The notes under the pieces were generated by a model, which had not been told where the DNA came from, ran no database searches, and saw only the letters and a program-made list of their open reading frames with translations. Both the position numbers and the translations under genes were made by a program. Source: Cokeromyces recurvatus (Eukaryota; Mucoromycota; Mucoromycetes; Mucorales; Mucoraceae). From it: 64,000 bases of DNA. Positions within the stretch are counted from its first letter, which is position 1. Every line of letters begins with the position of its first letter. Shown one piece after another: positions 2,699 through 3,726 of this stretch. The DNA is taken from positions 682,001 to 746,000 of the forward strand of contig NW_026251394.1 of assembly GCF_025118155.1 (NCBI RefSeq), written 5' to 3'.

Positions 2699-3521
2699 CT
2701 ACAAAATAAAACATTTATTCTTCTTTTTCTTCTTATTCTTTCCCTTGGGACCACCCGTATTTAAACCCTCTCTTTGAGCTCTAATCGCTTTCACAACTTG
2801 ATAAAATGATCTTTCTACATTGACACATGTCTTTGCAGAGGTTTCAATAAAATCACATGCTAATTGTTTAGCCATTGCTGCACCTTCTTCTCGAGTCACT
2901 TCTCTTTCTGTCACTTTATCGCATTTATTGCCGACTAACATCATTGGTACATTATCGACATCTTTTACTCTAAATATCTGGTTACGAAAGCGTTCAATAC
3001 GTTCAAAAGTAGAACGGGAAGCGATTGAATAAACTAATAAGAAGCCCTCACCATCTCTATTATATATATATATATATTGGTTAATTGATATAATATATAC
3101 ATATGTATATGTACATATATATTTTTGTTTTCTCTCTTTCTCTTTCGATTATATATGTATATATACCGAATCCATTGATCTCTTAATGCTGTATATTCTT
3201 CTTGACCTGCAGTATCTAATACTTCAAGTACACAAGGTTGATCATCAATAACGACTTGTTTACGATATGAATCTTCAATTGTAGGATCATATGTCTGAGA
3301 TAATGATTTAGTCATTTTCACGTTGTATGTATATATGTATATATGTGTATATGTGTATATGGATATATATATGTATATATGTATATATGTATATATATCA
3401 CATTTTATTTACCTCTATAAAATAAATAAAATGAGTAAAACAAGTAAATGTATATGTGTAATATTACCAACAAAGTGATTAAGGCATAACTAATATGTGT
3501 ATATTCATATATTTATATGTA

Positions 3522-3565
<44 letters not shown>

Positions 3566-3726
3566 ATAAGTAATTGCAAATAAATAGATGATTTTTTTTT
3601 TTATACTTGAATTGTTAAAGCAGTCTATATAAAACAAAATAAATAAAATAAAATACATTTTAATATTAATAAACTTACCTTTCCTACGCCACCATCACCA
3701 AGAACTACTAACTTGTAAAGCATCAT
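2699..3726 (-). CDS. RAS3: Ras-family GTPase, Mucor Ras3 type, with micro-exons
   Basis: 191-aa small GTPase. Exons on the minus strand: 3679-3726 ([17 protein letters not shown]-loop), 3607-3624 (18 nt, TALTIQ), 3468-3489 (22 nt, LCLNHFV plus one base), 3413-3414 (2 nt, AG), 3167-3294 ([13 protein letters not shown] effector loop, DTAGQEEY switch II) and 2699-3056. The last exon holds the NKCD and ETSAK guanine-binding motifs, then a Lys-rich tail and the CAAX box CFIL, which predicts geranylgeranylation and membrane attachment. The 2-nt exon supplies the last two bases of the GAG codon for the effector-loop Glu, restoring FVETYDPT and the frame. Without it the frame breaks directly after the P-loop half. 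Closest family by memory is the Mucor racemosus Ras3 group. Introns are 54, 117, 53, 118 and 110 nt; the 117-nt one holds a 39-nt T tract on the coding strand. Role inferred from family: morphogenesis signalling. Confidence 0.9.
3525..3563. repeat. Poly(A/T) tract, 39 nt, in RAS3 intron 2
   Basis: Uninterrupted A39 on the plus strand, i.e. T39 on the coding strand of RAS3, about 35 nt upstream of the acceptor of the 22-nt exon. It may serve as an oversized polypyrimidine tract. Its length is probably polymorphic. Confidence 0.9.

Follow-up and report, generated by a model that had tools for sequence, protein, structure and literature searches.

The window, a stretch of 64,000 nt of Cokeromyces recurvatus DNA, carries on its minus strand an intact RAS gene, which we named RAS3a. 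With a dinucleotide AG included as an exon of its own, the gene encodes a protein of 191 amino acids ending in KNKCFIL. Its exons and the two introns flanking the dinucleotide are as follows.

3679..3726, minus strand: RAS3a exon 1, 48 nt
3607..3624, minus strand: RAS3a exon 2, 18 nt, encoding TALTIQ
3468..3489, minus strand: RAS3a exon 3, 22 nt, encoding LCLNHFV plus the first base of the Glu30 codon and ending in GTT-G
3415..3467, minus strand: RAS3a intron 3, 53 nt, phase 1, GTAATA...TTATAG
3413..3414, minus strand: RAS3a exon 4, the candidate micro-exon AG, 2 nt, completing GAG (Glu30)
3295..3412, minus strand: RAS3a intron 4, 118 nt, phase 0, GTAAAT...ATCTCAG
3167..3294, minus strand: RAS3a exon 5, 128 nt, starting with ACA and ending with RDQWI plus two bases of the Arg73 codon
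2699..3056, minus strand: RAS3a exon 6, 358 nt including the stop codon, starting with DGEGF

The predicted protein is a Ras domain over its full length, its nearest relatives are annotated as fungal Ras2 or small GTPase, and it is 93% identical to an entry from Mucor circinelloides. It aligns with KRAS chains over residues 2-190, and KRAS has Asp at residue 30. The last four residues, CFIL (CLIL in the paralogue RAS3b described below), form a C-terminal CAAX-type box. A long T run and ATATAC-type repeats occur in introns 2 and 4 (window positions 3525-3565 and 3320-3400), and introns 2, 4 and 5 are all longer in RAS3a than in RAS3b.

On the minus strand the dinucleotide stands in the context TTTTATAG/AG/GTAAAT, with AG at positions 3414-3413. 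The layout proposed in the initial annotation, from exon 3 and its donor through AG to CTCAG and the ACA codon at 3294, agrees with the DNA at every coordinate, and its consequences for the reading frame were reproduced by computation. Joining exon 3 directly to exon 5 gives FVDI followed immediately by a stop codon, whereas keeping AG creates GAG, restores the frame and yields FV-E-TYDPT within the complete Ras protein. The initial annotation had also called this the Ras effector-loop codon. A conserved Glu30 is indeed completed, but the residue lies at the N-terminal edge of switch I, outside the core effector segment. Residue 30 may have a role in effector choice.

Splice-site strength was scored with position matrices built from 79 introns of this genome with homology support, comprising 68 of the 132 introns that a spliced aligner placed in 36 Ras-superfamily loci and 11 introns from loci L037-L040. 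The training introns range from 51 to 155 nt (median 74, 95th percentile 125), and the flanking introns of 53 and 118 nt are thus of normal size for the genome, as had been claimed. Relative to the 79 training introns, the acceptor directly upstream of AG ranks at the 71st percentile and the donor directly downstream at the 82nd. The exon 3 donor GTAATA, which had been described as perfect, is an ordinary one (30th percentile), and the final acceptor, CTCAG, is weak (4th percentile). If introns of at least 30 nt are allowed, AG is the sole stop-free, frame-restoring internal exon with GT-AG boundaries at this site. The dinucleotide is therefore placed as an ultra-short micro-exon should be: it sits between an acceptor and a donor of normal strength, and the frame of a conserved protein requires it. 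Branch-point enrichment was weak and mixed, and ACTCA/CTCAT was only suggestive.

The chance occurrence of such an exon was estimated by counting 2-nt exons that complete a Glu codon and whose acceptor and donor both reach at least the 5th percentile among the 79 training sites. Of 20,000 dinucleotide shuffles per gene, 0.065% contained a qualifying exon for the RAS3a intron region and 0.18% for the RAS3b region. Across both strands of the entire window (128,000 positions) there were five, or approximately 0.004 per 95 nt.

The spliced aligner, which was used without splice-site scores, recovered in RAS3a the 22-nt and 2-nt exons together with a phase-1 intron of 53 nt and a phase-0 intron of 118 nt. 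When queried with four orthologous proteins (Choanephora P0003, Lobosporangium P0021, Basidiobolus P0031 and Mycosarcoma P0060), it chose 22-nt and 2-nt exons in both paralogues. What prompts the micro-exon call is the Glu that these orthologues carry, not any tendency of the aligner to force an exon: with a query from which Glu30 had been removed, it took the alternative lacking Val-Glu in both RAS3a and RAS3b. In RAS3a this alternative is a single intron of 177 nt running from the donor TTT/GTTGGT to CTCAG, which leaves the protein in frame without Val29-Glu30 (LCLNHF-TYDPT), and exactly such a product is annotated in 11 of 118 named relatives in the pooled search lists described below. We nevertheless regard it as decidedly improbable. 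Its donor scores -1.83, lower than all 79 training donors; the segment is kept in all 29 unnamed, mostly transcript-like entries of the first search list (the best 120 of 7,871); and the deletion would shorten switch I beside an otherwise invariant stretch. Every direct join that keeps RAS3a in frame either relies on a donor weaker than all 79 in the training set or removes ETYDPTIE.

A second gene, RAS3b (L036; contig C30, about 179.2-180.1 kb), has the same arrangement of a 22-nt exon and AG. Its exon 3 ends GTTG/GTAAGA, followed by GATAG/AG/GTAAAA and then by TATTAG/ACTTATGAT.

L036 positions 1432-1431: RAS3b micro-exon AG, acceptor at the 42nd and donor at the 71st percentile

The flanking introns are 77 and 81 nt long, and skipping AG gives FVDL followed by a stop codon. 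The one alternative frame-restoring exon, of 11 nt, has two sites that both score below 0. Over their first 165 codons RAS3a and RAS3b have a DNA identity of 84%. A frame problem at a single locus would be accounted for by a two-base error of assembly or sequencing, or by gene decay, in either case without any micro-exon, but this is very unlikely here because the paralogue lies on another contig and has the same out-of-phase flanks, with AG between an acceptor and a donor, while its introns have diverged. Strong constraint on the protein also argues against decay, since 156 of the 165 residues are shared even though 28 of 62 fourfold sites differ. A MAFFT alignment of the two intron regions does not pair the two micro-exons, and the 11-nt string that both regions share at the micro-exon falls short of significance when taken alone (12.6% of 500 shuffles).

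The initial annotation had further noted a resemblance to a recursive-splicing ratchet site. AG/GTAAAT does look ratchet-like, and two adjacent introns have to be removed in succession, as would be expected of a zero-nucleotide recursive site or of a stwintron (nested twin intron) that keeps no exonic base. The resemblance ends there, since dropping both bases loses the frame and produces FVDI-stop or FVDL-stop. A stwintron is defined by an inner intron lying within the donor, branch site or acceptor of the outer one (PMC5639578, PMC6616335). Such elements resemble RAS3a in being fungal and in undergoing two consecutive excisions at one place, but whereas the stwintron splits an outer splice element, the two exonic bases of RAS3a separate two complete introns with no splice element interrupted. 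A recursive site or stwintron in RAS3a is accordingly vanishingly improbable.

Conservation beyond this genome was judged on predicted proteins, since a protein scan of viral contigs and alignment scans of genome and viral contigs yielded no DNA of relatives. The first search list, the best 120 of 7,871, comprised 91 named and 29 unnamed entries; the named ones include the chimeric P0015 (scored as broken), P0029 (labelled catfish) and P0077 (labelled fern). The F-V-x-x-YDP segment was broken in 40 of the 91 named entries. By comparison, the pattern at the control junction GGVGK-TALTIQ failed in 8 of 91, some through substitution only, and that at RDQWIR-DGEGF in 4 of 91. None of the 29 unnamed entries was broken at the micro-exon site and one failed the first control segment. 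We infer that most of these 29 are transcripts because they hold whole Ras frames on contigs of approximately 1-3 kb; a few sit on longer contigs. Being unbroken, they support the presence of the exon in mature mRNA, but only indirectly. P0077, filed under the fern Adiantum nelumboides, is a Ras2 protein 89% identical to one from the basidiomycete Violaceomyces and probably stems from fungal contamination of that assembly.

Pooling three lists gave 156 proteins, of which 118 are named and 38 are not; the query behind the second list lacked eight residues, which biases that list. By the strict pattern 57 of the 118 named entries were intact, and at least three more (P0040, P0088 and P0098) are intact at the site and fail the pattern elsewhere. 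Among the unnamed entries 33 of 38 were intact; P0065, P0120 and P0144 differ by substitution only, the region is missing from P0133, and P0139, on a 1,710-nt contig of unspliced appearance, is broken at the site.

The kinds of breakage match those predicted by the layout of a 2-nt exon. Besides the 11 of 118 named entries that lose exactly Val-Glu, another category, also 11 of 118, loses LCLNHFVE, the in-frame 24 nt of exon 3 plus the 2-nt exon. Six of 118 read Val-Gly, as read-through of a G/GT donor demands, and four of these six (GKC, GKS, GMC and GES) are compatible with donors of the form GTRNRT. Val-Asn or Val-Ser after Glu, the read-through of the donor following GAG, is found in Lichtheimia ornata P0014, Mucor velutinosus P0017 and Microbotryum P0141. 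In four of the five models extended upstream of Glu, the residue before it is compatible with YAG/AG; P0090 is the exception. Absidia glauca P0069 (FVDSYRKQ) corresponds to an in-frame escape among those calculated for RAS3a. Broken entries come from ten phyla: Mucoromycota, Mortierellomycota, Glomeromycota, Calcarisporiellomycota, Zoopagomycota, Kickxellomycota, Basidiobolomycota, Chytridiomycota, Neocallimastigomycota and Basidiomycota, with one representative looked up for each phylum assignment. The idea that the annotation failure is confined to Mucorales was rejected on this account. The third list contains ascomycete entries, among them Hirsutella P0143 and Trichoderma P0147, that are unbroken, and intact entries may reflect either correct annotation or absence of the intron pair. 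In any one species outside this genome the site may hold a single phase-1 intron instead of the pair.

Taken together, these data indicate that RAS3a very probably contains two ordinary GT-AG introns and, between them, a coding exon of 2 nt, AG, which supplies the last two bases of the Glu30 codon. The initial annotation's reading of a 2-nt micro-exon is borne out on three counts: AG is the only frame-restoring internal exon, a diverged paralogue has the same layout, and the annotations of relatives fail at this codon. Less securely, we infer from the protein comparisons that the micro-exon dates far back in the fungal Ras2/RAS3 clade and that annotation regularly overlooks it. We lean slightly towards a broader joint reading, in which the AG exon at Glu30 would be ancestral to the fungal Ras2 clade from chytrids to basidiomycetes and would have been retained because the frame and switch I make its loss hard; a sizeable fraction of the fungal Ras2 proteins in public databases would therefore show a spurious deletion or insertion next to the effector loop, and obligatory two-step splicing, together with the stop codon that skipping creates, may help set RAS output.

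Two-step splicing with both bases kept is the likely route. Two bases can hardly hold an acceptor complex and a donor complex together, and the two introns would therefore be removed successively, each presumably recognized by intron definition, as their short length suggests. In the cited passage Guo and Liu (PMC4674806) make a comparable steric argument against simultaneous removal of both introns at a 1-nt exon. Excision of the upstream intron first would create GTTGAG/GTAAAT, a strong donor, and RNA spliced with the micro-exon kept would contain GTTGAGACA. Skipping of the micro-exon, with the premature stops described above for each gene, would leave the mRNA non-productive.

Ultra-short exons are already known, and the RAS3 exon would add a new case. 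Two nucleotides had been proposed to be at or near the lower limit for a eukaryotic coding exon; published 1-nt exons (Arabidopsis APC11, plant VPS55 and Fusarium CYP621A) place that limit lower. The CYP621A exon, described in PMC12940212 from 20 Fusarium species, is likewise a fungal ultra-short coding exon that completes a conserved-motif codon, keeps the frame and was missed by annotation, but it is 1 nt long, belongs to a cytochrome P450 gene and is backed by SRA reads, whereas the RAS3a exon is 2 nt long, lies in a Ras gene and is predicted from DNA. The 1-nt exons of plant APC11 and VPS55, confirmed by RT-PCR and RNA-seq according to the cited passages of PMC4674806 and PMC8831610, resemble the RAS3 exon, as proposed here, in being constitutive, widely conserved and missing from reference annotations; they differ in being from plants, 1 nt long and verified by RT-PCR and RNA-seq, whereas the RAS3 exon is fungal, 2 nt long and predicted from sequence. 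Exons of 2-5 nt in Arabidopsis, Drosophila and human, as cited in the relevant passage of PMC12940212, share its size class. Literature searches, with most subscription-journal papers falling outside them, turned up no earlier report of this RAS exon. Should RNA confirm it, a gene central to signalling would have a coding exon of just 2 nt, and that exon would be present in two paralogues and perhaps in much of the fungal kingdom, and would explain a recurring error in fungal Ras annotation at a functionally critical loop. The RAS3a/RAS3b pair offers a compact test of how the spliceosome copes when only two bases separate an acceptor from a donor.

Elsewhere in the genome, none of the six other Ras-like paralogues aligned (L037-L042) has an intron at residue 30. 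Introns lie at residues 13, 38 and 65 in L037-L039 and L041 (L041 has one extra, doubtful intron), at 19 and 108 in L040 and at 15 and 50 in L042. Unfiltered models of 36 further loci contain 97 internal exons, all of at least 11 nt; the smallest, apart from the RAS3 exon, is an 11-nt internal exon in a Rab11-like model (L079; G000:C45 831400-833800). Two segments of approximately 2.9 kb carrying a Rho-type GTPase, G000:C8 615500-618415 (L081) and G000:C19 96000-98917 (L080), are 99.8% identical and lie in opposite orientation on two contigs, the C8 copy a few kb from its contig end; they represent either a recent duplication or an unmerged haplotype.
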